DNA of 64,000 bases from Microbacterium sp. Marseille-Q6648 (GTDB lineage: Bacteria; Actinomycetota; Actinomycetes; Actinomycetales; Microbacteriaceae), in NCBI RefSeq assembly GCF_943181415.1, contig NZ_CALPBZ010000001.1, positions 496,001 to 560,000 of the forward strand, given 5' to 3'. The first letter of the stretch is position 1. Each line of letters opens with the position of its first letter. Below the pieces are notes generated by a model. The model made no database searches, was not told the origin of the DNA, and saw only the letters and a program-made list of their open reading frames with translations. The position numbers were made by a program, and so were the translations under genes. Below, piece by piece: positions 7,461-64,000 of this stretch.

Positions 7461-8699
7461 ATGAGCACTCCCCGCATCGTCGTCACCGGCATCGGCGCCA
7501 CATCGCCCATCGGCGGCACCGCACCGGAAAGCTGGTCCGAGCTCCTGGCCGGCACCTCCGGCGCCCGGAGCCTGGAGCACGACTGGGTCGAGGAGTACCA
7601 GCTTCCGGTGACCTTCGCCGCGGAGGCGAAGGTGCGACCGGAGTCGGTGCTGCCGCGCCCGACCGCGAAGCGTCTGGACCCGGCATCCCAGTTGGCGCTC
7701 GTCGCAGCGATGGAGGCGTGGGAGGACGCGGGAGCCCCCGAGGTCGAGTCCGAGCGACTCGGCGTCGACTTCGCCACCGGGATCGGCGGTGTCTGGACTC
7801 TGCTGGATGCGTGGGACACCCTGCGTGAGAAGGGTCCGCGCCGCGTCATGCCGATGACGGTTCCCATGCTCATGCCCAACGCCGCAGCAGGCAACCTCTC
7901 GCTCCACTTCGGCGCACGCGCCTTCGCGCGAACCGTCGCCAGCGCATGCGCCTCGAGCACCGAATCGATCGTGAACGCCGTCGAGCACCTGCGTGCGGGC
8001 CTCGCGGACGTCGTCATCGCGGGTGGCACCGAGTCCGCCATCCACCCCATCACCGTGGCATCCTTCGCCTCGATGCAGGCGCTGTCGCGGCGCAACGACG
8101 ACCCGTCCACCGCGTCGCGACCGTGCAGCGTCGACCGGGACGGCTTCGTCATGGGCGAGGGCGCGGCCTGCCTCATCCTCGAGACCGAAGAGCACGCCCG
8201 TGCCCGCGGCGCGAAGATCTACGCCGCCGTGGTCGGTGGCGGGGTCACGGCCGATTCGTACCACATCACCGCGAACGACCCCGAGGGCCACGGAGCAGCG
8301 CGCGCCGTACGGATGGCGCTGGAGATGGCGGGCGCTTCGCCCGATGACGTCACGCACATCAACGCGCATGCGACATCCACACCCGTCGGCGACCCGAACG
8401 AGTACCAGGCGCTCAAAGCGGTCTTCGGCTCCCGTATCGACGAGATCCCGGTGTCAGCCACCAAGGCATCGACCGGTCATCTCCTCGGCGGCACAGGTGC
8501 GCTCGAGGCGCTCTTCACGATCCTCGCGCTGCGGGACCGCCAGGCTCCGCCGACGATCAACATCACGACGCAGGACCCCGACGTGCCGTTCCGCATCTCC
8601 GGTTCCCCCGTCGCTCTCGGAACCGGCGACCAGCTGGCCATCAGCAACTCCTTCGGCTTCGGCGGCCACAACGCCGTGGCGGCCTTCACTGCCGTCTGA
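7461..8699 (+). CDS. fabF: Beta-ketoacyl-ACP synthase II
   Basis: A 412-residue elongating condensing enzyme. The Cys-His-His active site is visible: Cys163 (ASACASS), His303 (NAHATSTPVGD) and His340 (STGHLLGG). GAGGAA lies a few nt before ATG 7461. It is the last gene of the fasR-fabD-fabH-acpP-fabF run and is followed at once by a strong terminator. Confidence 0.96.
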   Translation: MSTPRIVVTGIGATSPIGGTAPESWSELLAGTSGARSLEHDWVEEYQLPVTFAAEAKVRPESVLPRPTAKRLDPASQLALVAAMEAWEDAGAPEVESERLGVDFATGIGGVWTLLDAWDTLREKGPRRVMPMTVPMLMPNAAAGNLSLHFGARAFARTVASACASSTESIVNAVEHLRAGLADVVIAGGTESAIHPITVASFASMQALSRRNDDPSTASRPCSVDRDGFVMGEGAACLILETEEHARARGAKIYAAVVGGGVTADSYHITANDPEGHGAARAVRMALEMAGASPDDVTHINAHATSTPVGDPNEYQALKAVFGSRIDEIPVSATKASTGHLLGGTGALEALFTILALRDRQAPPTINITTQDPDVPFRISGSPVALGTGDQLAISNSFGFGGHNAVAAFTAV

Positions 8700-43657: not shown

Positions 43658-46243
43658 CTAGCGGGTGCTGAAACTGACCACCTTGGGCGGGCGGACGATC
43701 GCACGGACGATCTGCTTGTCGCCGAGCGATCGCACCACGCGCTCATCGCCTCGGGCCAGGGCCTCCAGCTCGGCGGCGTCGATGCGCGCCGACACGTCGA
43801 GCGTCGCACGTACCTTGCCGTCGATCTGCACGACGGCCGTCACGGAGTCCTCCACGAGCAGCGTCGTGTCGGGGGCCCGCCACGGCACCAGGCCGACGAA
43901 GGGCTCGTAGCCGAGGATCTCCCACATCTCCTCCGCGGTGTGGGGCGCGACGAGGTCCAGCACCATGGCCGTGACCTCGGCGGCTTCCCGCACGGCGGGG
44001 TCTGCGGGGCCCGCGCCGGTGTCGATCGCTTTGCGGATCGCGTTGACGAGCTCCATGAGACGAGCGACGACGACGTTGAACTTGGTCTGCTCGACCAGCC
44101 CGGGAGTGTCGGCCAGCAGGCGGTGGGTGACGCGGCGGAGGGAGGCGTCGCCCTCGGCCCACACCACGTCCGGCTCGCTCGTGACGTCGCGGGCGACGCG
44201 GAGCGCGCGGGCGAGGAATTTCTGCGCCCCCGTGGTCGAGACGTCGTTCCAGTCCTTGTCGTCCTCCACCGGCCCGGCGAAGGCCAGGGCGACGCGGAGC
44301 GCATCGGCGCCGTGGGCGTCCAGCTCGTCCTGGAAGAGCACGAGGTTGCCCTTGCTCTTGGACATCTTCGCCCCGCCCAGGATCACCATCCCCTGATTGA
44401 TGAGGCTCGAGAAGGGCTCAGTGAACTCCACCAGTCCCATGTCGAACAGGACCTTGGTGAGGAAGCGCGCGTACAGGAGGTGGAGGATCGCGTGCTCGAC
44501 ACCGCCGATGTAGAAGTCGACGGGTCCCCACTTGTCCGCCTCGCGGGTCGAGAACGGCTCGTCGGTGCTGGTGGGTGAGAGATAGCGGAGGAAGTACCAC
44601 GAGCTGTCGACGAAGGTGTCCATCGTGTCGGGGTCGCGGCGGGCGGGTTTCCCGGACTCGGGGTCGACGGTCGTGACCCACTCGGCCGCGCCGCCGAGCG
44701 GCGAGGTGCCTTTCGGGGTCAGATCCAGGTCCTTGGCCTCGGGGAGGCGGATCGGCAGCTGGTCATCCGGAACCGGGACGATGCGCCCGTCGTCGGTGTG
44801 CACCATGGGGATGGGCGTCCCCCAGAATCGCTGACGCGAGATGAGCCAATCCCGCAGGCGATAGGTCTTGGCCGCCCGGCCATCGCCCGAAGCCTCCAGC
44901 TGGTCGATCATCCGCGCGATGGCGTTGCGCTTGGAGAGACCGTCCAGCGACGCGGAGTTGATCATGCGCCCCTCGCCCGTCAGCGCGACGCCGGTCCGGG
45001 CGGGGTGGATGTCATCCAGACCGTCGCCCGCCAGCGACGGGTCGACCGGCTCGCCGTCGGCATCGAGCTCGATGACCGGAATGGCGCCGGTGATGGGCGC
45101 TGTCGTGTCGACGACCACCTTGACGGGCAGGTCGAACGCGCGCGCGAAGTCGAGGTCTCGCTGGTCGTGCGCGGGCACGGCCATCACCGCGCCATGACCG
45201 TAGTCCGCCAGCACGTAGTCCGCGGCCCAGATGGGCAGGCGTTCGCCGTTGACGGGGTTGATCGCGTACCGCTCCAGGAACACACCGGTCTTGGGCCGAT
45301 CCGTGCTCTGCCGCTCGATGTCGGTCTCGCGCTGCACCCGGTCGAGGTAGTCCTGGAAACGCATGCGAGCCTCGGCGGACGCGCCCGAGGCCAGTTCGGC
45401 CGCGAGGTCGCTGTCCGGGGCCACGACGAAGAAGGTCGCGCCGTGCAGCGTGTCGGGTCTCGTGGAGAAGACCGTGATCTTCTCGTCGCGTCCCTCGATC
45501 TCGAAGTCGATGTCGGCACCGACCGAACGACCGATCCAGTTGCGCTGCATCTGGATGACCTTCTGCGGCCAGAACCCCTCGAGCTGATTCAAGTCGTCCA
45601 GCAGCCGGTCGGCGTAGTCGGTGATCTTGAAGTACCACTGCGTCAGCTTCTTCTTGATCACCTCGGCGCCGCACCGCTCGCAGCGGCCGTCGACGACCTG
45701 CTCATTGGCGAGCACCGTCTGGTCGTTGGTGCACCAGTTGACCGGACTCTCTTTCCGGTAGGCCAGACCGCGCTCGTACATGCGCTGGAAGAGCCACTGA
45801 TTCCAGCGGTAGTACTCGGGGTCGCTCGTGTGGAGCACACGACTCCAGTCGAACGACACGCCGTACTGCTGGAAGCCGGTCTTCTGCTGCGCGATGTTGG
45901 CGTACGTCCAGTCGCGGGGGTCGGCTCCGCGCTTGATCGCGGCGTTCTCGGCGGGGAGGCCGAACGAGTCCCACCCGATCGGGTTCAGCACGTTGTAGCC
46001 GCGGTGCCGCCACGCCCTCGCGACGATGTCCGAGTAGAGGTAGTTCTCCGCGTGACCCATGTGCAGGTCGCCCGAGGGATACGGGAACATCGCCAGGACG
46101 TACTTGCGCGGGCGCGTGTCGTCGTCTCCCCCCGCACGGAACGGATCGGCCTCGGCCCACCGGGCCTGCCATTTCTGCTGCACGGCGTGGGTGTCGTGCC
46201 CGCTCTCGGCGGGCACGGCGGTTTCGGGCGAAGTCTGACTCAC
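43658..46243 (-). CDS. leuS: Leucyl-tRNA synthetase
   Basis: An 861-residue class I synthetase with the HIGH-type motif [10 protein letters not shown] near the N-terminus, KMSKSKGN in the C-terminal half, the CP1 editing domain and a zinc-binding CERCGAE. It charges tRNA-Leu, whose level feeds the leuA attenuator elsewhere in this window. GTG 46243 gives [13 protein letters not shown] 46267 would add eight residues, and neither has a strong ribosome binding site. Confidence 0.96.
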
Positions 46244-46295
46244 GGAGCGGGTACCAATCCTGGGCATGACGGAGACGCGGAGCGCAGGGACCAGG

Positions 46296-47609
46296 CTACC
46301 GGACCTCCACGCGGGCCCACTCGGCCGGCAGACCCGCCCCGAGGGCGGCGAGCGGTCCGCGCGCCTTGAGAGCGACCTCCCCGACCTCTTCCCAGGCGGC
46401 GGACTTCCAGGTGATCCCGCCGCCGGCACCGACGTAGGCCCCGTCCTCGTGGAGGACGATCGACCTGATGACCATCGCGAGATCGAGGGTGCCGTCATCG
46501 CCGACCCAGCCGAAGCATCCGGCGAACGCGCCCCTCGACGCACCCTCGAGATCGTGGAGGATCGTCATCGCCGACAGCTTGGGTGCGCCGGTCATGCTGC
46601 CTGCGGGAAACGCGGCATCGAGCAGATCGTCGACGGTGATGCCGGGGGCGAGCCGCCCCGACACGGTGCTCACGAGCTGATGAACCGCCGGATAGCTCTC
46701 GACCTCGAGAAGCGCGTCGACGCCGACCGACCCCGGCGTGCACACGCGCGACAGATCGTTGCGCATCAGGTCGACGATCATGATGTTCTCCGCACGCTCC
46801 TTCTCGCTCGTCCGGAGCTCCGCGATGAGAGCGGCGTCCTCCTCTGCGGTGGCGCCGCGACCCCGCGTTCCCTTGATGGGGGACGTCGACACCCGGCCGT
46901 CTGCGACCTGCAGGAAGCGCTCCGGACTCGCACTGGCCAGCGCCCGCCCGGCGCACCACACCAGACCCCCGTGATGCGCCGGATGAGCGGCACGCAGGCG
47001 GGCGTAGACAGCGGTGCGGTCGAATCCGCCCGCAACGTCGAAGCGGGTGGTGAGGCACAGCTGGTAGGCGTCCCCCTCGCGGATCGCCCCCCGTGCGGAC
47101 TCGATGAGCGCCGCGTACTCGTCGGGCCCGTGCCGGGCGTTCGCGCGGACGACGCGATCGGATGCCGGGGCGTCCGTTTCTCGACGGGCACCGGCCGCGC
47201 GGGTCGCCAGGGCGGCCGCCTCGCTCGCGGGGGCCACCGCCCACGCACGTCGGCGGGCGTGGTCGAAGGCCACCCACCGCGTGGCGCGGATCCACAGCGC
47301 GGATTCTGCGCCCCGCCGATGGACCGGTGCGCCCGCCCTCGCGGCGGCATCCTCGTAGTCGAACCAGCCCACCCGTCCCCCACGGAACGGACCGGCCGGC
47401 CAAGGGGTCCGCGGCTCCGATGCCAGACGCGCGGGACGGACCTCTTCCGCGGCGACGGGCGCCCCCTCGCCGACGAAACTCCAGCCTTCCTCGGAGCGCG
47501 GACCGGCATCCAGCCAGAATCCCGCGTACGCCCGGGCGAAGATCCCGCCGTGCACGTCGGCGGGGTCGGCCCACCTCGCCAGGGGCACGGCGACCAGCGA
47601 GTCGGTCAT
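46296..47609 (-). CDS. pabB: Aminodeoxychorismate synthase component I / anthranilate synthase family
   Basis: A 437-residue chorismate-utilising enzyme with the family motifs [37 protein letters not shown] and a [10 protein letters not shown] end. The stand-alone position away from trp genes favours PabB (p-aminobenzoate for folate) over TrpE. No glutamine amidotransferase gene is adjacent. It lies 52 nt upstream of leuS. Confidence 0.88.
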
Positions 47610-51955: not shown

Positions 51956-52908
51956 TGTCCGGGTTCACGACATATGTCACAGGTGATGTGTCGCTGGTGT
52001 CTCGCGACATAGGTCACAGTCCGATGCATGTCGAAGCATCGGGTCGTGGTCCTGAAGATCATCGCGAATCAGCTCACCGTCACCGAAGCGGCCGTGCAGT
52101 ACGGGTTGTCGCGGAGGCAGCTGCATCGACTCCTGGCCCGTTACCGGGAGGGCGGTATCGAGGCCGTCGATCCGCAGTCGCGGCGACCGAAAACAAACCC
52201 GCACGCCACGCCACCCGAGGTTGTCGAACGCGTCCTCCGTCTCCGCGCGGAACTGATCGCTCACGGGTTCGATGCCGGGCCGGTCACGATCTCCTGGCAT
52301 CTGGATCGTGAAGGGCTTCCCGTCCCGTCGCACGCGACGATCCACCGCATCCTGACCCGAGCGGGGCTGATCACCCCGGAACCGCGCAAGCGTCCGCGTT
52401 CCTCCTACGTCCGGTTCGAAGCTGCCCAACCGAACGAGACCTGGCAGTCCGACTTCACCCACTGGCGTCTGGCGGATGGCACCGACGCGGAGATCCTGAA
52501 CTGGCTTGATGACCACTCCCGACTGCTGCTGTCCTGCACCGCCCACCGCCCCGTCACCGGCGACGATGTCGTGACGACGTTCCTGGCCGCGACCGAGGAA
52601 CACGGGATCCCCGCATCCACCCTGACCGACAACGGCCGGGTCTACACGGCACGGTTCGGCGGCGGACGAAACGCGTTCGAACACCTCCTGCCCGCCCTCG
52701 GGGTCAAGCAGAAGAACGGCTCACCCGGTCACCCCCAGATCCAGGGCAAGATCGAACGGTTCCATCAAACCCAGAAACGCTGGCTCGCCCAGCAGCCCAC
52801 CGCGACCACGATCCTCGAGCTCCAAACACAGCTGGACCGGTTCCGCGTCGATTACAACGACCATCGACCGCACCGAGCCCTCGACCGCGCGACGCCCTCA
52901 CAGGGGCG
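51956..52908 (+). mobile_element. Partial IS481-family element
   Basis: A putative left end begins TGTCCGGGTTCACGAC, about 70 nt before a plus-strand IS481-type transposase gene. The element ends abruptly where the IS3 element begins. No IS481 3' remnant or right inverted repeat is found beyond the IS3 element, so the rest was deleted rather than just interrupted. Confidence 0.75.
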
Positions 52909-52966
52909 TGAGGAACGAACTGGTGACAGTTTCGGTTTAGGCCGCGAGTGTGAGCGGCTCGGTTAG
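52028..52966 (+). pseudogene. IS481-family transposase, C-terminally truncated
   Basis: The first about 290 residues match an IS481 transposase: an N-terminal helix-turn-helix (QLTVTEAAVQYGLSRRQLHRLL), then the rve domain with the DDE residues in WQSDFTHW, LTDNGRVYT and GKIERFHQT. After RATPSQ the reading frame enters the IS3 element and ends at 52966 with foreign residues, about 80 residues short of a normal family member. Probably inactive. Confidence 0.85.
52909..52931. repeat. IS3 terminal inverted repeat (left)
   Basis: TGAGGAACGAACTGGTGAC matches the right-end repeat at 17 of 19 positions. It lies just beyond the orfB stop. Confidence 0.8.
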
Positions 52967-53812
52967 CTTGGCTTCGAACTCGATGGGCGTCAACCCGCCG
53001 AGGGTGTCCTGGGCTCGCTGGCGGTGATACTTCCGCTCGATCCAGACGACGATGGCGAGGCGAAGCTCCTGCCGCGTCGCCCACCGCTGCTGGTTGAGGA
53101 CGTTCGTCTGCAACAGTGACCAGAAGCTCTCCATCGCCGCGTTGTCCCCGGCCGCGCCGACGCGCCCCATCGATCCGACCATGTCGTGACGGCGCAGCTC
53201 GCGGGCCATCGCCCTGCTCCGGAACTGGCTGCCCCTGTCCGCGTGCAGGATGCAGCCGGCCACCTCACCGCGGCGGGTGACGGCGTTGCGCACGGCATCG
53301 ACGGCGAGCTTCGCTGTCATCCGATCCGAGATCGAGTAGCCGACGATCCGGTTCGAGAACACGTCCTTGATCGCGCAGCAGTAGAGCTTGCCTTCGCTCG
53401 TCCAATGTTCCGTGATGTCCGTGAGCCAGAGCCTGTTCGGCGCATTGGCACGGAATACCCGTTGCACGTGGTCGTCGAACACGGGAGGGCCGGCCTTCTT
53501 GCCCTTGCCCCGCCGGCGGCGTTGCGCGGACGAGAGGATCCCGGCCTGCGAGCACAGCTTCCACGCCGTCCGGCGACTCATCCGCCAGCCAGCCCGGCGC
53601 GCCTCGTCGGCCAGGTATCGGTAGCCGAACGTCGGGTCCTCGTGGTGCGCATCGTGCAGCGCATTGATCCGATAGGCGCGGAGCACATCCGCGTCCCGGA
53701 TCGGGTCGCCTCTCCACCGGTAGTAGGGCTGGCGGGCGAGCTTAAGGACCCGGCACGACACCGACACGGGGATCCCCGCGTCGGCGAGCTCAGCAACGAG
53801 CGGGTATGTCAT
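52937..53812 (-). CDS. IS3-family transposase OrfB (integrase core)
   Basis: A 291-residue protein with HTH_21-type N-terminus and the rve catalytic domain. The DD(35)E triad is visible: Asp132 (LTDITEHW), Asp192 (LHADRGSQF) and Glu228 (AAMESFWS). It starts in the -1 frame relative to orfA at an ATGA overlap next to a CCCCAAAA run, so it may be made both alone and as an OrfAB fusion by frameshifting. Confidence 0.94.
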   Translation of the reverse strand: MTYPLVAELADAGIPVSVSCRVLKLARQPYYRWRGDPIRDADVLRAYRINALHDAHHEDPTFGYRYLADEARRAGWRMSRRTAWKLCSQAGILSSAQRRRRGKGKKAGPPVFDDHVQRVFRANAPNRLWLTDITEHWTSEGKLYCCAIKDVFSNRIVGYSISDRMTAKLAVDAVRNAVTRRGEVAGCILHADRGSQFRSRAMARELRRHDMVGSMGRVGAAGDNAAMESFWSLLQTNVLNQQRWATRQELRLAIVVWIERKYHRQRAQDTLGGLTPIEFEAKLTEPLTLAA

Positions 53813-54438: not shown

Positions 54439-55455
54439 TCAAAGCCACCGCTTCCACCTGAAGACGCCGTACAGCCCGGTGGCGACACCGACCATCAGAA
54501 CGAGCGAGAAGGGGTAGCCCAGTTCCCACCCGAGTTCGGGCATGTACTCGAAGTTCATCCCGTAGACGGTGCCGACCAGGGTTGGGGCGAAGATGATCGC
54601 CGCCCACGAAGAGATCTTCTTGATTTCCTCATTCTGCGCGAGGTTGAGTTCTGTCATCCGCCGCATCTCGTCGTTCTGCCGTTGCGCGAGCAGCGTGACG
54701 TCAACGGTGAGCGCGTTCTCGAGGATGGTTCGGAACGACGCCGATCGCTCGACGATGCGGAGGGCGTGGTCAAGCACGCCCCGCAAGTAGCGCTGCAGTT
54801 CACTATCAACCTGGTACTTTTCTGAGCCGCGCAACAGCGCCTCGAGCATGCCGACCAGCGGCTGTGAGGCGCGTTGGAAGTCAATCACCTCGCGGGAGAG
54901 CTCATAGATGCGCCGTGACACGCCGTCTTCGTCAGCAAACAGCTGATTCTCAATCTCATCGATGTCGTTTTCCAGACCGGCGATAACTGGTCCGTACTCA
55001 TCGACGACTTCATCGATAATGGCGTAGAGCACCGCCTCCGGCCCCATCGACAGCAGTTCGGGCGTGCTCTCCAGGCGGTGACGGACCTGAGCCAGGTTTG
55101 GGGACTCGGCGTGCCGAATAGTGGCAATGAAGTCCGGGCCGACAAACAGATGCAGTTCGCCGAACTCAACCTTTTCCACAGCATCGAGGTAGCGGGCCGG
55201 GCGCAGAACCACGAACAGGGTGTCACCGTAGCGTTCCAGTTTGGACCGCTGATGCCAGGTCAGCGCGTCCTGGACCGCGAGCGGATGCAGCGAAAACTCC
55301 TCGGCGACTGCGCGCACCTCGGCCTCGTTCGGCCGATACAACCCGATCCATGCCATCCCGCCACGAGATCGCATCGTTTCAAAGGTCTCATCCAGGTTCG
55401 CCGGGCTCTCTGTACGAACGCCGTTCACGTACACTTCGTTGTCAACTAACGCCAT
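54439..55455 (-). CDS. corA: CorA-type magnesium/cobalt transporter
   Basis: A 338-residue protein with the large N-terminal cytoplasmic domain, a long stalk helix and two C-terminal membrane helices. The signature YGMNFEYMPEL precedes the last helix, and the C-terminus FRWKRWL is positively charged. Three ATG codons occur in a row (55461, 55458, 55455); the third has best spacing (7 nt) from AAGGGGG. It lies in the minus-strand metal module with the ATPase remnant. Codon choice is less GC-rich than the left half of the window. Confidence 0.94.
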   Translation of the reverse strand: MALVDNEVYVNGVRTESPANLDETFETMRSRGGMAWIGLYRPNEAEVRAVAEEFSLHPLAVQDALTWHQRSKLERYGDTLFVVLRPARYLDAVEKVEFGELHLFVGPDFIATIRHAESPNLAQVRHRLESTPELLSMGPEAVLYAIIDEVVDEYGPVIAGLENDIDEIENQLFADEDGVSRRIYELSREVIDFQRASQPLVGMLEALLRGSEKYQVDSELQRYLRGVLDHALRIVERSASFRTILENALTVDVTLLAQRQNDEMRRMTELNLAQNEEIKKISSWAAIIFAPTLVGTVYGMNFEYMPELGWELGYPFSLVLMVGVATGLYGVFRWKRWL

Positions 55456-55746
55456 CATCATTCCCCCTTCGTCCAAGACTGAGCACAGCGCCGAATTGCG
55501 CTGCGAGCTGGAAGTGTGCACCGCTGATGCAGGTCAAGCCAGCATGGCACCACAGGAACGAGCCAAGTTGACGTGGAGATCGAGCACAGCGAAGCCGTGG
55601 GACATCGCTCAGGGCGACTAGCAACCTGCGAGCAAGAGTGGCAGACCATGCCGACTCCAAGTCACCGTGAGATTGCGCGAAAGACCCGCCCGCTCCCGTG
55701 TGGCATCAATCTCAGTGGCGCGAGTGCCCCGTTTCGGGGTAGTTAG
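55456..55746. other. Gap of about 290 nt upstream of corA
   Basis: No ORF with plausible coding character is seen. It contains the corA ribosome binding site and small hairpins (for example CCCCG-TTT-CGGGG around 55724-55737) that may end the upstream gene. I looked for Mg2+ or Mn2+ riboswitch signatures and found none. Confidence 0.5.
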
Positions 55747-56672
55747 TCATCTGCCGAAGAGGTTTCCCCAGCCCGGGATGTCGATGTTGGAGAGTTGCTC
55801 CCCGAAGCCACTGATGTTCTCTCCCCAGCCCGCGAAATTGTCTGTGGCTCCGGCAGCGAGGTCGCTCGCCCCACCAGCTAGATCGCTCGCCCCGCCGGCA
55901 ATGTCGGTGGCCGTGGCGGTGACGTCCTCCAGTCCCGTGGCAAGCGCGGAAAGGTCGACCGCACCGGCAAGCGCATCGAAATCGACGCCCGCGGTGAGCG
56001 CTTCGGCAAGAAGGGGCGTGGCAAGGGCACTTCCGATCGCTCCGGTGGCGACGACAACCAAGAGCCCACCGGCAGCACCGGCGGCGGCCGCGCCGGCCTT
56101 CTGCCCGGTGGTGGCGTTTCCTGTTCGAGGGGTTCGAGCGAGGATCCTTGCCAGAACACCCGGCCGAGCTGCCTCGGCGCGGGTGGCAGTGCGGGCAAGA
56201 TCAGCCGGTTGGGATGTGCGGGGCTGCTCTGCGAGGGGGAGTTCGGTCCGCAGTCGCGCCTGGATCTGGTTTCGTTCTGCGGGAGTGAGTCGGCGGAACG
56301 CAGCGGCGTGGATCCGCTCCAGCTGGGCAGGCTCGGCGGCATGAAGGAGGTATTCGTAACGGGCCACTGCGGCACGCTCGGGCGCGTGATCGTTTGCCGG
56401 GGGTGGGGTCAGCCCGACGGTGTTCGAGGGTGCAGTACCGGCGGGTGCGCCGGCAGGTGGGGTGAGCGGATGCTCGGGTCCCGGTGGCGGGACGGGTGTC
56501 GCCGGTCCGCTGACCGGGGCAGGCGGGGGGGCGCGGCGCCGGTGATGGGGCCCACCGCACCACGCAGTGTGCTTTTCCAGTCGCGGGGTGCGCTGCCGGT
56601 GGTCTTCGCAGGCGCTGGGGTCTTGTTGAGTGCCCGTTGGGCCAGGCCGGTGAGGCGGTCAAACATGGTCAT
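55747..56672 (-). pseudogene. Frameshifted membrane protein with Pro-rich linker, unknown function
   Basis: Two reading frames join into one protein of about 308 residues if a single C is added to a C7 run (G7 at 56525-56531 on the plus strand). Frame one (ATG 56672, AAGGAAG 6 nt upstream) reads MFDRLTGLAQRALNKTPAP and about 30 more residues. Frame two continues with a Pro/Ala-rich linker, a helical segment YEYLLHAAEPAQLERIHAAAF, one or two hydrophobic helices (about GLLVVVATGAIGSALATPLL) and a Gly/Ala/Asp-rich tail with ASDLAGGASDLAAGAT repeats. Similar actinobacterial proteins lie near cation transporters, but no function is known. Homopolymer error, true mutation and slippage remain possible. 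Confidence 0.7.
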
Positions 56673-56783
56673 GAGCGTCTTCCTTCTGTGTGGGTGCTGG
56701 GGTGCTGTGGAACGTGATTGCGCCTCTTCCGGGCGGGTGGTCGTCCCTCCTGCTTCACGAACGTTGGTCGATCCTGTGGCAGG

Positions 56784-57257
56784 TCAGGCGAGCGGGAGCC
56801 AGGCTACGGACATCACTCCCCACGCCTGGGCCCGACCAGCGGATGGTGGGAGGCGGAGGGAAGAACGTGTGGCTGAGTAGGCTTCGACGCGCACCTGCTC
56901 GGGGGTCAGCTCAACCCCCGCGGCGGCGGCATCCGCGAGCACCGCGGTGAGAATCTCGCTGTGCCGTCGAGCGCGAGAATGCAGCAGGACCGCCGGGTCG
57001 AGGCTGAACCCTGCCCGCTCCGGCTGCACGTGTACTCCCACATGGGCGGTGCGCTCTGCGAGGAGCCGTACCGCGGTGAACAGTCCGTTCCACCGGACTC
57101 TTTGGCGCGGCAGGGCGATGTGCACGCACAGATCACAGTCCCCGACGAACGAGCGGAGATCATTGGGCCATACGGGCGCTTCGACGATGACGCGGTCGAT
57201 CGGGGTGGTGAGCTGACCGTGACGCAGCAAGCACAGATCGTGTTCTTTCGTAATCAC
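56784..57257 (-). CDS. Hypothetical protein in the TerC operon
   Basis: A 157-residue soluble protein starting at GTG 57257 with GGAG 6 nt upstream. It has no membrane helix or motif I recognise. The start lies 2 nt after the stop of the preceding gene, which supports a shared transcript with terC. Confidence 0.65.
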   Translation of the reverse strand: MITKEHDLCLLRHGQLTTPIDRVIVEAPVWPNDLRSFVGDCDLCVHIALPRQRVRWNGLFTAVRLLAERTAHVGVHVQPERAGFSLDPAVLLHSRARRHSEILTAVLADAAAAGVELTPEQVRVEAYSATRSSLRLPPSAGRAQAWGVMSVAWLPLA

Positions 57258-57259
57258 GA

Positions 57260-57721
57260 TCAGCTCCGATCCGGGCAGGCATCGTCGTGTAGCTGCACGC
57301 GCGCGCCCCAGTCATCAATCGGATGCAGCACACCGGTGGCCGCAGCAGTCCGGTCGATCACTGTCCGGGCGTCCCAGAATGGACCTCCCTCGACGATGAG
57401 GCACTGCCCAGCACCCACGTGCAGCTCGTTGCTCTTGCCGCCTAGCAAGACCCGCTGCCCCGCCGCGACGACAACTTCGGTCACTGATTGATCAGTGACC
57501 TCACGCAAGGTAACCGGATTGTCTCCGGCGTTGCGCAGGCTCCCGCATCCCGGCAGAGGTCCGCCGCAGCGGTCACCGACACCGACAGTCCACGCGACTA
57601 CGAGGATCCCGGTCACCGCGAGCAGCGGCAACACAACCACTGCCACCGTCGAACCTCGGCGACCCCTCCTCACCGGCTGGGAATCGGGGGCCAGGGCCGC
57701 CGAGGGGTCACGGTCAGTCAT
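57260..57721 (-). CDS. Hypothetical membrane-anchored protein in the TerC operon
   Basis: A 153-residue protein with one N-terminal membrane helix (about 25-47) after a basic RRGRRGS stretch, so the remaining about 105 residues should be outside the cell. Four cysteines in that part (DRCGG, PGCGS, GQCLI, DACPD) could form two disulfides. Its ATG overlaps the terC stop by 8 nt, indicating translational coupling. No family recognised. Confidence 0.7.
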   Translation of the reverse strand: MTDRDPSAALAPDSQPVRRGRRGSTVAVVVLPLLAVTGILVVAWTVGVGDRCGGPLPGCGSLRNAGDNPVTLREVTDQSVTEVVVAAGQRVLLGGKSNELHVGAGQCLIVEGGPFWDARTVIDRTAAATGVLHPIDDWGARVQLHDDACPDRS

Positions 57722-58757
57722 CGGAACTCACCTTCCCATCTGCGCGCACTCTGCCCCGGCGGCGGAAGACCGGCTCGGCCGCAGCGAGCTCCTCGTCGCT
57801 GGCGAGCCGGAACGCTCCGGCAGCTTCGGTCTGCACCTCCCGGCGGCCTTGACCGCGGGTAGCGCGGAGGCTCGCGATAATCGAGACGGTGATGATGGTG
57901 GCGACCACGGCGAGACTGATGGTGGTGGGGATGTAGAGCACGTCCAGAAGCAACATCTTGATCCCGACCCAGATCAGGACGAACGCGAGTCCGACCTTGA
58001 GGTAGATGAACCGGTGGATGAGGTCGGCGAGGAGGAAGTACATGGCCCTCAGCCCCAGGATCGCGAACGCGTTGGCAGTGAAGACCAGGAACGGTTCGGA
58101 CGTGACGGCGAAGATCGCGGGGATGGAGTCGACGGCGAAGATGATGTCGGTGATCTCCACCAGCACCAGCACTGCTAGCAGCGGGGTGGCCACGACGATC
58201 CCGGCCTTGCGGATAAGGAACTTCTGCCCGTGGTACGCGTCGGTCATCGGCACGAACCGGCGGAACACCTTCAGAATCTTGGACTTCTCCGGGTGAATGT
58301 GGTCGTTGCGGGAGCGGAACATCCGCCATCCGGTGTAGATCAGGAACGCGGCGAACACGTAAAGGATCCAGGAGAAGTTCTCGATCAGCGCGGCACCGGC
58401 GGCGATGAAGATGCCGCGGAAGATCAGCGCACCCAGGACACCGAGGAACAGTACCCGGTGCTGGTACTCGCGGGGCACGGCGAACGCGGCGAAGATGATC
58501 GCCCAGACGAACACGTTGTCCACCGCGAGGGATTTCTCGATCAGGTAGCCGGCGAAGTACTGCTGCCCGTACTCCGCCCCCCACAGCGACCAGACCAGCA
58601 CACCGAACGCGACACCGAGCGTCACCCAGACGATCGACCAAACCGCGGCTTCCCGCACCCCGATCACATGCGCCTTACGGTGCGCGACCAGATCAACGGC
58701 GAGCATGACCAGGATCACACCCAGAACGGCGAACCAGGCCCACAAAGGGACAGTCAT
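57714..58757 (-). CDS. TerC family integral membrane protein (probable Mn2+ exporter)
   Basis: A 347-residue protein with about eight to nine membrane helices and the TerC motifs EKSLAVDNVFVWAIIF and VEITDIIFAVDSIPAIFAV, whose acidic residues bind metal. TerC/Alx proteins export manganese or help metalate secreted proteins. The preceding yybP-ykoY riboswitch supports a Mn2+ role here. ATG 58757 has GGAGG 8 nt upstream; the in-frame GTG 58772 lies on top of that site and is rejected. The hydrophilic C-terminal tail is about 40 residues. Confidence 0.92.
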   Translation of the reverse strand: MTVPLWAWFAVLGVILVMLAVDLVAHRKAHVIGVREAAVWSIVWVTLGVAFGVLVWSLWGAEYGQQYFAGYLIEKSLAVDNVFVWAIIFAAFAVPREYQHRVLFLGVLGALIFRGIFIAAGAALIENFSWILYVFAAFLIYTGWRMFRSRNDHIHPEKSKILKVFRRFVPMTDAYHGQKFLIRKAGIVVATPLLAVLVLVEITDIIFAVDSIPAIFAVTSEPFLVFTANAFAILGLRAMYFLLADLIHRFIYLKVGLAFVLIWVGIKMLLLDVLYIPTTISLAVVATIITVSIIASLRATRGQGRREVQTEAAGAFRLASDEELAAAEPVFRRRGRVRADGKVSSDD

Positions 58758-58763
58758 GACAAA

Positions 58764-58790
58764 GACCTCCACGAAAGATTCGTGAAGGTC
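58764..58790 (-). promoter_or_regulatory. Shine-Dalgarno-sequestering hairpin of terC
   Basis: A 12-bp stem with one G-U (58764-58775 with 58779-58790) and a 3-nt loop. Its 3' arm in RNA contains the terC GGAGG, and its 5' arm overlaps the closing strand of the riboswitch. The two structures cannot form together, so ligand binding should free the ribosome binding site. Confidence 0.7.
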
Positions 58791-58873
58791 TCATCGGCCT
58801 GGCGGGCCCCTGCGCACCGGATCCCGCGGAGGGAACGTATTGACGATGCGGAGCGAGGATTACTCCCCTTCTC
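58782..58873 (-). ncRNA. yybP-ykoY family (Mn2+) riboswitch
   Basis: The minus strand reads AAGGGGAGTA near the 5' end, then ATCGTCAATACGTT, then GATGAGACCTTCAC at the 3' end. GGGGAGUA, the CGUCAA loop and the closing GAGACCUU are the conserved elements of the yybP-ykoY aptamer, whose L1 and L3 loops bind Mn2+. TerC genes are the classic downstream partners. The predicted start of transcription falls at its 5' end. Confidence 0.85.
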
Positions 58874-58878
58874 GAGCC

Positions 58879-58908
58879 ATCAAACAGGAGAAGCATGCTT
58901 CATGTCAA
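58879..58908 (-). promoter_or_regulatory. Promoter of the terC operon
   Basis: TTGACA (58903-58908) and TTTGAT (58879-58884) on the minus strand are 18 nt apart. The -35 box is a perfect match to consensus. Transcription would start around 58872, exactly at the riboswitch. Confidence 0.7.
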
Positions 58909-59038
58909 GTCTGCTCGCGAAACAGGTCCGGAGCCACGCTCTGCACATGGACGAGTTCCGGCCGCCGTGACGGCCGTCTGACGCGACTACGCTGAATCCC
59001 GGTTGCTCGTCAGCTACGCGGCGAAATACGGTGGGTGG

Positions 59039-59545
59039 GTGAAGGGTTCAGGATTCGACCTCGATGCGGGGCTCCGACGCTACCCGTGGGTGTCTCGGGC
59101 AATGAACGCGGAGGCCGTTTACGGGACCGTGCTGACCGCGGGTCTCATTTCCGCGTACTCTCTCTACAACCCGACACTGCCGGTCCTCATCGCCCGCACC
59201 ATCGGGACCGTCCTCGTGTTCTGGGGTGCACACGTCTACGCCGAGATCGTCGGAAACCGTGCGATGAGCTGGCGGGAAGCGGTCCGCGAAGGACTGCAGC
59301 GCTCCGCAGGACTCCTGTGGGCACTCATCGTCCCGGTCGCCTGTCTGACCGTAGCCGTGTTCCTCGGACTCTCGATGAATGTCGCCGTGGACATTTCTCT
59401 GTGGGGAGGTGTCGTCAGCCTCGCCATATTGGGATGGTGGGCGGCCCGGCAACGCAATGCCTCCACGGTGGTGAAGGTGGCAACCGCCGCCGCAACGGCA
59501 GGAATGGGACTCGCTCTGATCGCCCTCAAGGCACTCGTGCACTGA
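59039..59545 (+). CDS. Hypothetical four-helix membrane protein
   Basis: A protein of about 168 residues with four hydrophobic segments (TVLTAGLISAYSL, LLWALIVPVACLTVAVFLGL, ISLWGGVVSLAILGWW, AATAGMGLALIALKAL). No family is recognised. The start is uncertain: GTG 59039 is used, but TTG 59003 and ATG 59101 are possible. It is divergent from terC and convergent with the regulators. Confidence 0.65.
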   Translation: MKGSGFDLDAGLRRYPWVSRAMNAEAVYGTVLTAGLISAYSLYNPTLPVLIARTIGTVLVFWGAHVYAEIVGNRAMSWREAVREGLQRSAGLLWALIVPVACLTVAVFLGLSMNVAVDISLWGGVVSLAILGWWAARQRNASTVVKVATAAATAGMGLALIALKALVH

Positions 59546-59587
59546 CCGCGTCCGGGTGCCCGTTCAGCCGAGCGACAACGAGCGGGT

Positions 59588-59866
59588 CTAGTGGATGTCC
59601 AGCAGTGCGCGGATCAGGTCGTCCACGGTATGCGCGGCGTTCGCGGGATGCCGCAGCGGACGGTCCTGATACAGGACGTAGTGGTTGCGTCGTCCGCGCT
59701 TCTCCCGCTCCAGATACCCAGCGTTCTCGAGATCGTTGAGGATCGTGAGCGCCGAGCGTGTAGAGATTCCGACCACCGCAGCGATATCACGGACGGTCGC
59801 GTCTGGGTTACCCTCAATCGCGAGCAATACGTGCGCGTGATGCGTCAAGAACGTCCACTCGGCCAT
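59588..59866 (-). CDS. Winged-helix transcriptional regulator 1
   Basis: A 92-residue protein made up almost only of a winged helix (ATVRDIAAVVGISTRSALTILNDLENAGYLEREKRGRRNHY). GGAGGAGGGGAG precedes ATG 59866. It is clearly paralogous to the next gene: both start MA.WTFLT.HAHVLL and end with DRPLRHP. No metal- or ligand-binding domain is present, so the signal is not evident. Confidence 0.82.
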   Translation of the reverse strand: MAEWTFLTHHAHVLLAIEGNPDATVRDIAAVVGISTRSALTILNDLENAGYLEREKRGRRNHYVLYQDRPLRHPANAAHTVDDLIRALLDIH

Positions 59867-59924
59867 CGCTCCCCTCCTCCTGCGTAGCGCCTACCGGCGA
59901 GCCCTTGCGAACGCGCGGCTGAGA

Positions 59925-60230
59925 TCAGGCTGCGCTGGGCGCGTGTTCTGATGCATCCGACGCCGAGAAGACGGCCAGGAGTTCGCCGATGTGATGGCCC
60001 CGATCCAGGGGGTGCCGCAACGGACGGTCCGGGTTGAGCCGGTAGGTGTTGCGCCGCCCGACCCTCTCCCGGGTCAGGTACCCCTCCTGCTCAAGCTCAC
60101 TGACGATGCGTTGCGCCGCACGCTCGGTCACCCCCACCAGGCTCGCGACGTCCCGCAACAGAATCTGCGGGTTGGCTGCCACGCACAGCAGAACATGGGC
60201 GTGATTGGTGAGAAAGGTCCACTGCGCCAT
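59925..60230 (-). CDS. Winged-helix transcriptional regulator 2
   Basis: A 101-residue paralogue of the neighbouring regulator, with a winged helix (LLRDVASLVGVTERAAQRIVSELEQEGYL) and the same RRN.Y wing and DRPLRHP. It is directly divergent from dabB, so the two regulators are candidates for controlling dabBA. ATG 60230 is used; GTG 60233 adds one residue. Confidence 0.82.
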   Translation of the reverse strand: MAQWTFLTNHAHVLLCVAANPQILLRDVASLVGVTERAAQRIVSELEQEGYLTRERVGRRNTYRLNPDRPLRHPLDRGHHIGELLAVFSASDASEHAPSAA

Positions 60231-60273
60231 CACCCCATCTTACCGTTCCACCCCACTTGTTTCCGCATACGCA

Positions 60274-60301
60274 TTTACCGAATCACAATACGTGCTATGT
60301 T
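60274..60301 (+). promoter_or_regulatory. Candidate promoter of dabBA
   Basis: TTTACC (60274-60279) and TATGTT (60296-60301), spaced by 16 nt, lie in an AT-rich stretch (about 60243-60315) that stands out from its GC-rich surroundings. This is the divergent region shared with regulator 2. Confidence 0.45.
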
Positions 60302-60331
60302 TTTCGTGTTTCCAGTGACAGGTGAAAGCGG

Positions 60332-61864
60332 GTGTGGTTGATGGGGAGTGTGGTCTTCACGATCGCGATAGCGGCACCGTGGGTCGGTGTCGTGGTCGCC
60401 GCCTTGCTCCCGGCATCGGCCGGGACCGTGGCGCGGGCCGCTGCATGGGCGACGGGAACAGGCGCCCTCGCTGCTATCGCCGCCCGGCTGCTGGCGGTAC
60501 TAGCTGGGCAGCAGCCGCCGTCCGGGGGCCTCTGGGCCGGCGACGCGGTGGCGGTGCTGATGCTGACGCTGGTCTTGTGGTTGAGCGCGGTGATCCAGAT
60601 GTTCGCGCTCCGCTACCTGCGCGGCGACCTACGGCAACGATGGTTCGCAGTGTGGGCGAACGCGTTGACGGGCAGCACCGTGGTGATGGTGTGTGCGGGG
60701 ACGGTGGTCACCTTCACCATCGGCTGGATCGCGGCGGGCGTTTCCCTGGTCTTCCTGTTGCACACCTATGGGTCGCTGCCACAGGCCCGTCAAGGGGTCC
60801 GGCGGACTGGGCTGAGCTTCCTGATCGCGGACGCCCCCCTGGTGGTGGCGGTGTTGGTCCTGACGCTGGCCGCCGGGAGAGATATTCGCCTCGCAGAGGT
60901 GGGATCGGTGTCAGCGACACTGCCGGAGGGCATCGTCGTCGCGGTGGCTCTGCTGTTGGTGGTCGCGGCACTTGGCCGGTCCGCCCAGATCCCCTTCCAC
61001 CGGTGGCTTCCCGCGACACTGTCGGCCCCGACCCCCGTCTCTGCGCTGCTGCACGCCGGGGTCGTGAACGCCGGCGCCATCCTGGTCATCCGGTTCTCCC
61101 CGCTGATCGCGCCCGTGGCTGCGGCGATGCTGGTCATCTTCGCAGCCGGCGCGGCGACGCTGGTGTACGCCACGGCGGTTCGGCTGGTCAAACCTGACGT
61201 GAAGGGCCGGCTGGTGTTCTCCACCGCCGGTCAAATGGGCTTCATGATGATGGCTGTCGGGCTGGGCGCGTTCGCTGCGGCCATCTTCCACCTGATCGCC
61301 CACGCGCTTTACAAGTCCGCCCTGTTCCTTTCCGCCGGCACCGGAGTGGCCAACCACGCCGAGCAGCGGACCTGGCCCGCCCCGGAACCATCCCCCCGCT
61401 CCCGAACGGTCGCAGCGGTCCTGCTCGCCACCGCCCTGCCTGTGGCGGTGCTCGTGGCAGCGAAGGGAATGCTCGCCCCCCAGGCAACCCCCGCGAGCCT
61501 GGCCCTGCTCGGATTCGTCGCCTTTACCGCCGCCGTTGCCGTCGCAGCCGGGCTGCGCCGCTCGATGACAGCGGCCACTCTCACGGCCGCGGCGATCGGA
61601 CTCACTGTCCTGGGATTCTCGTACGTCGCCTTCCTCGGCATTTTCGAACACCTGATCACTCCCGCTGCGTCAATCCAGCCGGCATCGCCTTGGTGGCTGC
61701 TGATCCCTGCCGCCCTATTGCTTGGTCTGGAGCTGCTCGTTAACTCCCCGCGCACGGCCAGCCGGATGCACAGCGCCCTGTATGCGCGGACCCTCGCCGA
61801 ATCGACGGTCTCCGCGCCCACCCGGATCGGCCCTGCCCGTGCCCGTCAGAAGGAGGCCGTGTGA
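60332..61864 (+). CDS. dabB: DabB: proton-conducting membrane subunit of the inorganic-carbon transporter
   Basis: A 510-residue protein with about 13 membrane helices, related to the NuoL/Mrp antiporter subunit family (SAPTPVSALLHAGVVNAGAILV and the HALYKSALFLSAG motif with proton-path Lys/His). Paired with DabA it forms an energy-coupled CO2/bicarbonate pump that uses the proton or cation gradient. GTG 60332 is chosen for its AGGTGA upstream; ATG 60341 is an alternative. The stop overlaps dabA (TGATG). Confidence 0.9.
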   Translation: MWLMGSVVFTIAIAAPWVGVVVAALLPASAGTVARAAAWATGTGALAAIAARLLAVLAGQQPPSGGLWAGDAVAVLMLTLVLWLSAVIQMFALRYLRGDLRQRWFAVWANALTGSTVVMVCAGTVVTFTIGWIAAGVSLVFLLHTYGSLPQARQGVRRTGLSFLIADAPLVVAVLVLTLAAGRDIRLAEVGSVSATLPEGIVVAVALLLVVAALGRSAQIPFHRWLPATLSAPTPVSALLHAGVVNAGAILVIRFSPLIAPVAAAMLVIFAAGAATLVYATAVRLVKPDVKGRLVFSTAGQMGFMMMAVGLGAFAAAIFHLIAHALYKSALFLSAGTGVANHAEQRTWPAPEPSPRSRTVAAVLLATALPVAVLVAAKGMLAPQATPASLALLGFVAFTAAVAVAAGLRRSMTAATLTAAAIGLTVLGFSYVAFLGIFEHLITPAASIQPASPWWLLIPAALLLGLELLVNSPRTASRMHSALYARTLAESTVSAPTRIGPARARQKEAV

Positions 61865-64000
61865 TGAGTCTGCTGGTCCAGGCCCATGTCGCCCAAGCCG
61901 CCCACGACGTCATGGCCAGCTGGCCGATCGGATCGTTCATCGCGCTCAACCCGCTCGCTGCACACGAGAGCACCCGATTCGAGAACATCGCCGAACCCGG
62001 AGTCGCGCTCACCCAGACTCTCCCGCGGTACCACGCCCAGTTCGCGTCAGGCCGCATCACGCGCGCCGACCTGATCACCGCTCTGCGGGAGCGGATCGGG
62101 GAACTCGCCGGGCTACCTGTCATCGAGCTCGGCGGGATGGCCTGGTCGGCAGAAGAGATCCTGGTCGCGGAATTGCTCCGTCCCGACACCCGCCCGCCGA
62201 CTCCGAGGACATCGCCGCCGGCGGATCCGCTCGAGCAGCACATCACAAAGTGGGTGGCCGCATTCGTGGACCCCGACCCGCAGTGGCCGATACCCGGACG
62301 GCAGCACGGGTTCTACCGCGCCTGGCACGCCCTGGCCGTCCACGACCCGCACCTGACCAGGCTGGCACGACGGCGGATCCGCTCCCTCCCCGACCGGGCT
62401 CTGCCCGCGCTGACGGCAACCCTCACTCATCTCGGGGTCGGAGACACGACCACCGTGGAGACCCTCACAGCAGAGCTGGCTGCGCTTCCGGGGTGGACCA
62501 GCTACCTGAAATGGCGGTCCGAGCACAACAGCGACATCGACTTGACCGAATATCTCGCCGTCCGCCTCGCCCTCCGCCATGCCCTCGACCTGCCCCTGTC
62601 ACCCTCCGCGGCCCACCCCACACCGGCAGGCGAGGAGACCCCAGCCCCGGGGAGGGAATTGTGGGAGCGCGCCGAACAGATCTCCGCCACCCTGGCGACC
62701 GCGCCCACCCGTGCCGAGGTGGCGATGGTGGCCCGGATCCTGATCCTGCATGCCCCTACCGATCATCCGTTCACCTGGCAAGCCGCCTACGACGGCCACT
62801 ATCGGGCCGCATTGCTTCAGTCGATCACCCAGAGCAGCACCGCACCGGACCGGCCGGCGGTGCAGGTGGTGATGTGTATCGACCCGCGCTCCGAAGGGGT
62901 ACGCCGTCACTTGGAAACGCAACCGGGGGTGGAGACGCTCGGCTTCGCCGGGTTCTTCGGCGTCCCCGTCCGGTTCACGTCCCACCAGGGCCGCGGGGCG
63001 GTGGACTCGCTTCCCGCCCTGTTGCGTCCCCGCCACGCCGTCACCGAATCACCCACGAGCCCCCAACGCGCCCACCGACGCGGCCAGGGGCTCCGATTCA
63101 TCGACGCCGCCGCACACGCCCTGCACACCACCGAGAACGCAACAGCGACCCCGTTCGCGCTGGCCGAAACCGCAGGCTGGTTCTACGGCGCCGCCACCTT
63201 CACCCGCACCCTCACCCCCGGCCTGCACCACACCCTCACCCGCACGTGGCGGACCCTCATCGCGCCGCCCTCCTCCAGCGAGGTCACCGTTTCGGATGCC
63301 TTCAGCCTCGAAGAGCGTGCGACGCTGGCCGAAGCTGCGGTCACGATGATGGGACTGCACCAGTTCGCGCCGCTCATCGTCCTCACCGGACACGGATCCA
63401 CCAGCACCAACAACCTCTACCAATCAGCGTTGGACTGCGGCGCCTGCGGCGGAAACCCAGGCGCAGTCAACGCCCGAGCAGCCGCAGCGATCTTCAACGA
63501 CCCCACCGTCCGGGCAGCGCTCGCCCCCCGCGGGATCACAATCCCGCAGGACACCATCTTCGTCGCCGCACTGCACAACACCGTCGCCGACACCATCACC
63601 GTGCTGGACCCGCACCTGGTCCCGAGCACCCACGCCGCCGAACTGGCCAAGTTCAGCACGCGCGCACGTGACGCCGCCGATCTCCTCGTCCGCGAGCGAG
63701 CCACTGGCCTCCCCGGCGCACACCCGCACCAGTCCCTGGCGCGGCTGAGAGCCCGCGCACACGACTGGGCAGAGGTCTACCCAGAGCTGGGACTGGCCGG
63801 CAACGCCGCCATGATCATCGGACCCCGGGAAATGACCGCCAGTGTGAACCTGCATCGCCGGGTGTTCCTGCATTCCTACCGCGCCGAGATGGACCCCGGC
63901 GGGACGGGGCTGGAAACCATCCTGACCGCCCCGATGATCGTGGCGCAGTGGATCAACCACCAGTACTACTTCTCCACCCTCAACCCCGACCTGCTCTCCG
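61864..64000 (+). CDS. dabA: DabA: zinc-dependent inorganic-carbon transporter subunit (UPF0753, partial)
   Basis: The first 712 codons are present; the gene runs off the right edge. Residues corresponding to the zinc site of characterised DabA are all found: Cys338 and Asp340 (CIDPRSE), His510 (TGHGS) and Cys525 (DCGACGG). The spacing (His to Cys 15 residues, Cys to His 172) agrees with the family. The protein is beta-carbonic-anhydrase-like and works with DabB to convert CO2 to bicarbonate unidirectionally. Start at ATG 61864, overlapping the dabB stop. Confidence 0.93.
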   Translation, partial: MSLLVQAHVAQAAHDVMASWPIGSFIALNPLAAHESTRFENIAEPGVALTQTLPRYHAQFASGRITRADLITALRERIGELAGLPVIELGGMAWSAEEILVAELLRPDTRPPTPRTSPPADPLEQHITKWVAAFVDPDPQWPIPGRQHGFYRAWHALAVHDPHLTRLARRRIRSLPDRALPALTATLTHLGVGDTTTVETLTAELAALPGWTSYLKWRSEHNSDIDLTEYLAVRLALRHALDLPLSPSAAHPTPAGEETPAPGRELWERAEQISATLATAPTRAEVAMVARILILHAPTDHPFTWQAAYDGHYRAALLQSITQSSTAPDRPAVQVVMCIDPRSEGVRRHLETQPGVETLGFAGFFGVPVRFTSHQGRGAVDSLPALLRPRHAVTESPTSPQRAHRRGQGLRFIDAAAHALHTTENATATPFALAETAGWFYGAATFTRTLTPGLHHTLTRTWRTLIAPPSSSEVTVSDAFSLEERATLAEAAVTMMGLHQFAPLIVLTGHGSTSTNNLYQSALDCGACGGNPGAVNARAAAAIFNDPTVRAALAPRGITIPQDTIFVAALHNTVADTITVLDPHLVPSTHAAELAKFSTRARDAADLLVRERATGLPGAHPHQSLARLRARAHDWAEVYPELGLAGNAAMIIGPREMTASVNLHRRVFLHSYRAEMDPGGTGLETILTAPMIVAQWINHQYYFSTLNPDLLS

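Follow-up and report, generated by a model that had tools for sequence, protein, structure and literature searches.

Two leaders of Escherichia coli, those of alx and mntP, are treated as Mn-responsive yybP-ykoY riboswitches (PMC9603457). The crystallised aptamers of this class are four-way junctions (PMC6754395), in which one adenosine, A41 in L. lactis and A48 in X. oryzae, contacts Mn2+ through its N7. The mgtA Mn/Ca riboswitch of S. pneumoniae, a Firmicute, is described as having the yybP-ykoY fold with a three-way junction (PMC9495176); the pathogen survey in the same source lists 14 bacteria that carry the switch, with no actinobacterium among them. The class is nevertheless known in actinobacteria. 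The leader of C. glutamicum terC (cg2157) was assigned to the Rfam model RF00080 at 49.13 bits and was seen in RNA-seq (PMC3890552), and Mn2+-sensing yybP-ykoY riboswitches are reported to have come out of RNA-seq studies of Corynebacterium and Streptomyces (PMC8164766). As far as the available text of these reports goes, their elements were apparently recognised through Rfam, which the leader described here is not; the actinobacterial branch that resembles alx is poorly covered by RF00080.

We analysed a 64,000-nucleotide stretch of the Microbacterium sp. Marseille-Q6648 genome (the window). Positions 58908-58758 of its minus strand hold a TTGACA box, an aptamer-like leader and a hairpin that buries the Shine-Dalgarno (SD) sequence, all 5' of terC (Table 1). 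It is highly probable, in our judgement, that this leader is a Mn2+ riboswitch of the yybP-ykoY class and alx subtype that serves as a translational ON switch for terC against manganese excess. Computation shows a covarying structure, homology to alx, the association with particular genes and the overlap with the SD hairpin; homology and folding suggest that the switch depends on Mn2+ and in which direction it works. The leader itself is well formed and ordinary for a class that is already known, and the gap in its detection is the part worth following.

Table 1. Features of the terC leader and its downstream genes (positions in the window)
Feature	Position	Strand	Basis or remark
-35 box TTGACA	58903..58908	-	direct reading
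Candidate -10 box TTTGAT, 18-nt spacer	58879..58884	-	direct reading; poor match
Whole aptamer-like leader	58780..58873	-	match of covariance models R1 and R2
P1.1 switch helix, 5' strand GAAGG	58867..58871	-	paired to 58784-58788; column pairs covary in A1 and A2
L1 segment GGAGUA	58861..58866	-	A2 columns G94, G88, A93, G93, U93, A94 of 94
Helix P1, 5' strand AUC	58858..58860	-	pairs with GAU 58793-58795
P3, 5' strand GCAUCG	58844..58849	-	pairs with CGGUGC 58814-58819
L3 loop UCAAUAC	58837..58843	-	loop A58841 invariant, 94/94 in A2
Upper P3 hairpin UCCC-loop-GGGA	58822..58834	-	fold; covarying
P3, 3' strand CGGUGC	58814..58819	-	fold and covariation
P4 hairpin GGCC-CGCCA-GGCC	58796..58808	-	fold
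GAU (P1 3') 58795-58793, GAGA 58792-58789, CCUUC (P1.1 3', shared switch strand) 58788-58784	58784..58795	-	
SD-burying hairpin, 13 bp, AGACCUUCACGAA-UCU-UUCGUGGAGGUCU, alternative to P1.1	58763..58791	-	-18.6 kcal/mol
Shine-Dalgarno GGAGG, 8 nt before ATG at 58757	58766..58770	-	direct reading
terC, TerC family, 347 aa	57714..58757	-	PF03741 E 3.9e-55; 49% identical to E. coli Alx over 302 columns
ORF, possible second gene of the transcript	57260..57721	-	overlaps terC stop

The original prediction had read a promoter with a perfect TTGACA box here. The box is present, and TTGAC recurs in 19 of 20 window-type leaders (the window's own plus 19 loci from 18 named genome records). The rest of the promoter stood up less well: the candidate -10 box is poor, and a promoter scan reported no site at the leader, TTTGAT included. 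Between the two boxes, 58890-58901 form a perfect palindrome, GAAGCATGCTTC, a possible operator for a protein regulator; GAAG-N3..5-CTTC is found in 11 of the 20 window-type leaders. The three aptamer landmarks that had been named are all where they were seen, on the minus strand, which the prediction had left unsaid: GGGGAGUA at 58868-58861, CGUCAA at 58845-58840 and GAGACCUU at 58792-58785. A pattern with this order and spacing has a single match in the window, and 100 shuffles gave no match. Genome-wide this pattern is no proof by itself, with matches in 79 of 98 genomes and matches of a reversed control pattern in 11 of 98, and covariance models were therefore used instead.

The check proposed with the prediction, an Infernal search with the Rfam yybP-ykoY model, came out negative, an outcome that the prediction had named as its refutation. 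RF00080 (Rfam 15), searched to E=10, has no match in the leader (58700-59000), and none in the organism's own genome or in 17 loci of relatives and its own paralogues; the whole of Rfam 15, run on the window, the leader and the 17 loci, returned nothing relevant. Searched to the same limit of E=10, this model does not detect the alx leader of E. coli K-12 either, and its score for mntP, 41.6 bits, stays under its own cut-off of 45. Because RF00080 also misses the published Mn-responsive alx, its absence is uninformative here. We take the missing match for a limit of the model that touches no defining feature of the class, and we file the leader by its features and its homology to alx.

Leaders with the three landmarks precede many TerC genes in relatives. 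Aligning 47 of them with MAFFT gave A1, an alignment unfitted to structure. A covariance model, R1, was built from actinobacterial leaders that lack P2, the window included; since the window had contributed to R1, a second model, R2, was built from 43 leaders without the window and its three nearest relatives in the set (L001-L004). With R2, the window reaches 50.6 bits (E 1.6e-10 in 125.7 kb) and the alx leader of E. coli 50.5 bits (E 1.7e-10; R1: 50.8 bits, E 2.6e-11), all E-values of both models being rough. A sequence-only model of the R2 alignment scores lower, 30.2 bits for the window and 19.7 for alx, so base pairing adds about 20 and 31 bits, respectively. Together with the alx match and the genes downstream (84 of 90 in cation-transport families), this match without the window's own group makes a Mn2+ riboswitch before a TerC gene, as first proposed, the best reading.

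In the organism's own genome, R1 finds the window element at E 2.1e-10 and a second element, also before a TerC gene, at E 3.1e-14; the next among the five matches listed has E 1.6. Within the window, an R1 match on the plus strand at 44947-45029 (22.8 bits, E 0.0011) was rejected as chance: it lies antisense inside ORF 43658-46543, which we take from its protein sequence to be leucyl-tRNA synthetase. The genome's third TerC gene (L031, G000:C1:735700-736700) has CGAAAGG before its ATG and is without an R1 match upstream. Relatives' copies with a similar protein start (L029 and L036) have the aptamer, so the L031 copy may have lost it. When R1 was run on the 11 loci of the phylum found by RF00080, it matched 5 with E no higher than 0.001 and 10 with E no higher than 0.04, the locus L083 giving only a partial match (E 0.22). 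R1 and RF00080 view one related group from two sides. In E. coli K-12, R1 scores alx and not mntP, RF00080 mntP and not alx (L074 and L200), and the two leaders look like two subtypes.

Covariation was read from two alignments. In A1, outside the letters fixed by the search pattern, two-sided changes occur at columns 14-148 (UA 23, CG 18, AU 3), 15-147 (CG 26, UA 20, UG 1), 3-157 (GC 33, CG 13) and 4-156 (AU 32, GC 13, GU 1, UA 1). The structure as a whole is 80.7% paired in A1 against 68.0% when shuffled; by helix, P1 is paired at 96.3%, P1.1 at 92.9%, P4 at 81.5%, upper P3 at 77.4% and lower P3, whose strands MAFFT put out of register, at 66.8%. Against this, 6 of 500 shuffles attained the A1 count of both-side changes, and 8 of 500 that of further pair types. 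The second alignment, A2, holds 94 model-aligned elements (90 phylum loci and L001-L004), and 90.8% of its cells pair compared with 69.8% in shuffles, with two-sided changes in 24 of 27 pairs, figures that lean to the model structure to which A2 was fitted. Its five modelled helices, P1.1, P1, P3 and P4 among them, are 87.8-94.5% paired and have two-sided changes; the first pair of P1 occurs as U-A, G-C, C-G and A-U. A2 and the gene count below cover the R1 matches whose DNA was fetched, and some of the phylum loci had already served to train the model. Folded as a whole, the window leader is moderately more stable than its shuffles (z -1.86; 8 of 200 shuffles equal or better).

The L1 motif GGGAGUA, the invariant L3 adenosine and the closing strand GAGAC(C/U)UU are present in the window and near-invariant in the 94 A2 elements, letters that the search pattern had imposed on the 47 leaders of A1 and that R1 inherited. 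Aligned by eye with the published loop sequences (UCA-AUUC), A58841 corresponds to A41 of L. lactis and A48 of X. oryzae (PMC6754395). The leader resembles members of the RF00080 class (mntP, L. lactis, X. oryzae) in L1 GGGGAGUA, in an L3 with GUCA-type sequence and in the genes regulated; the closing GAGACCUU is also seen in an RF00080 match (L075). It differs from the RF00080 model, which has a small P2 hairpin between P1 and P3, and, lacking that hairpin, from the four-way junctions of the crystallised aptamers. The linker between P1 and P3 is at most 10 nt in 89 of 94 elements, which leaves little room for P2, although R1 was built from such leaders and leans short. One exception, L168, has an 18-nt linker with a P2-like hairpin (GCAGG-GAAA-CCUGC).

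With the alx leader, the window leader shares the order P1.1-L1-P1-P3(L3)-P4 and a short linker in place of P2. In both, the P1.1 3' strand runs directly into a hairpin (GACCUUGCC-GGAA-GGCGAGGUC in alx), alx is found at about 50 bits by the two structured actinobacterial models, and the downstream proteins are 49% identical. The hairpins differ in position: that of alx lies upstream of the start region (in L074 the leader match ends at 8502 and alx starts at 8581), whereas that of the window contains the SD itself. The likeness to the S. pneumoniae mgtA riboswitch is one of description; since a three-way junction is reported for that switch, P2 is not treated as defining. A reading of the P2-less form as a new variant was dropped, as alx has it and the three-way junction is already in print.

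The CCUUC strand belongs both to the closing helix of the aptamer (P1.1) and to the 5' arm of the SD hairpin, so the two folds are mutually exclusive, as had been predicted; the switch strand is complementary to the arm that holds the SD. In the predicted fold of the free RNA, GGAGG is buried. When shortened transcripts were folded, P1.1 paired at 95 and 100 nt and the SD hairpin replaced it from 105-110 nt, the order expected of co-transcriptional competition. GUGGAGG is present in the 3' arm of the hairpin in all 20 window-type leaders, with variable loops; these leaders were fetched with a pattern that fixes the 5' arm up to CUUC and leaves the 3' arm free.

In 92 leaders, pairing of the P1.1 3' strand with the downstream segment of the same leader has a mean of -12.9 kcal/mol. 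With segments exchanged between leaders the value is -9.8 kcal/mol (best of 200 swaps -10.4), and with shuffled letters -8.6. The paired partner spans an SD-like motif ahead of a start codon in 64 of 92 leaders (63 by a second rule); the count is only partly specific, the controls giving a mean of 42.9 (35-53) with swapped arms and 17.7 (9-24) with shuffled arm letters. The aptamer fold is costly. In the window it lies 17.8 kcal/mol above the SD-buried fold, and with all model pairs forced 26.4 kcal/mol above the best fold, the median of 92 leaders being 15.25 (range 1.7-33.7) for a cost that by construction is never below zero. For alx, with fewer pairs forced, it is 13.6 kcal/mol. Given this cost, switching must be kinetic or require much energy from the metal. 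A further point against the switch is that GGAGG remains paired when the aptamer fold is forced, its partner then being the beginning of the coding sequence.

The translational ON mechanism that had been put forward is likewise the best reading, with an SD-burying hairpin in 20 of 20 window-type leaders. Very probably the leader senses manganese and uncovers the terC SD, and terC translation most likely rises at high Mn2+. Transcription would start just 5' of the aptamer. At low Mn2+, the P1.1 3' strand GACCUUC would zip into the predicted hairpin and bury GGAGG. At high Mn2+, by homology, the ion would bind between L1 and L3 with A58841 as the contacting base, dock the two legs and keep P1.1 closed; the CCUUC strand would then be unavailable to the hairpin, GGAGG would be free and terC could be translated. 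The product belongs to a family that has been tied to Mn2+ export or to the metal supply of exported proteins.

Literature abstracts tie TerC proteins to the metalation of exported enzymes, and UPF0016 (GDT1) proteins and P-type ATPases are described as Mn efflux systems, with TerC in Mn detoxification (PMC13274385). An ORF of at least 80 aa follows 90 of the 94 A2 elements, the DNA examined holding none for the other four. The Pfam families of the 90 genes are TerC (49, of which the four of L001-L004 were selected through terC), GDT1 (18), E1-E2/Cation_ATPase_N (13), Na_Ca_ex (4), Peptidase_M48 (2), Peptidase_M50 (2), SAICAR synthase (1) and PGPGW (1). At the window, the second ORF has no Pfam family, and its joining terC in one operon is plausible only from the arrangement of the genes. 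A search of solved structures found no relative of the TerC protein. Five elements (L113, L123, L136, L145 and L166) stand before genes other than transporters, which we take individually, from reading their sequences, to encode M50 and M48 peptidases and a PGPGW membrane protein; these may represent a Mn2+-controlled membrane quality control.

The same aptamer fold could instead act through transcription, by early termination or by Rho access, and leave the ribosome-binding site alone. The L. lactis member is described as working by transcription antitermination (PMC11087558), and UUUGUC stands directly 3' of the window hairpin. A terminator scan of the leader gave no site, however, and a hairpin that contains GGAGG and ends 5 nt before the ATG is close for a leader terminator; we consider this route unlikely. 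A shade less likely still is that the main signal differs: it could be Ca2+, or alkaline pH combined with Mn2+, the pair of signals reported for alx and mntP. Reporters of those two genes respond to alkaline pH as well as to Mn2+ (PMC9603457), a member from S. pneumoniae reportedly has a higher affinity for Ca2+ than for Mn2+ (PMC9495176), and Na/Ca exchangers follow four of the elements and cation P-type ATPases 13. On the other hand, the L3 adenosine that confers Mn2+ preference is present in 94 of 94 elements, and GDT1 (UPF0016, Mn exporters) and TerC (Mn detoxification) make up 67 of the 90 genes (roles from PMC13274385).

That the landmarks are a chance string, or mark a conserved protein-binding leader with no aptamer, is very improbable. 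RF00080 is silent on the leader, and the palindrome between the -35 and -10 boxes could let a protein act at the promoter too. But the landmark pattern was absent from all 100 shuffles, the held-out R2 model matched and the helices covary, and by this covariation the idea is already contradicted.

R1 matches are found in 125 of 150 genomes of the window's family and in 70 of 296 genomes drawn from the Actinomycetota. RF00080 matches 10 in a draw of equal size, one above its cut-off, a comparison that favours R1, which was trained on actinobacterial P2-less leaders; both scans of the 296 genomes used stricter filters that lose weak matches. A single genome, G210, is common to both lists. In the literature searched, with most subscription papers outside its scope, we found no description of the alx-type actinobacterial branch. 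RF00080 is the usual tool, and annotation based on it overlooks manganese control in many Actinomycetota genomes; with a better model, unassigned TerC, GDT1 and P-type ATPase genes would become testable Mn2+ regulons.

The leader pattern of the window type was met in 19 stretches of genome contigs, with carriers that include Microbacterium, Cryobacterium, Tessaracoccus, Promicromonospora, Pseudactinotalea, Herbiconiux and Planctomonas. Window positions 56700-64000, which hold terC, two MarR-like regulators, a Proton_antipo_M protein and DabA, are 97.7% identical over 7302 bp to a contig of Tessaracoccus sp. SD287, and 55745-60991 are 89.5% identical to Promicromonospora umidemergens. Since Tessaracoccus is a genus of another order, the level of identity suggests that the 56700-64000 block was probably transferred recently between orders. 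A plasmid of Kocuria and one of Nocardia also carry similar terC genes behind leaders that R1 matches. We lean slightly towards a broader view, in which the alx-type P2-less switch is a distinct subclass that makes up most Mn2+ riboswitches of Actinomycetota, is nearly invisible to today's Rfam model and moves between orders on islands and plasmids as a cassette of promoter, aptamer, SD hairpin and terC. Selection bias of the model and the earlier actinobacterial reports have somewhat lowered our confidence in it.

Beside the terC block, 54439-55521 encode a CorA-type transporter, and two adjacent transposase-like genes (LZ_Tnp_IS481 and rve/HTH_21 matches) lie at 52028-53812; together they may mark an island edge. 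An alx-like leader (45.3 bits) was also found on a 38.7-kb IMG/VR viral contig, possibly host DNA (L204, 10384-10485, plus strand).
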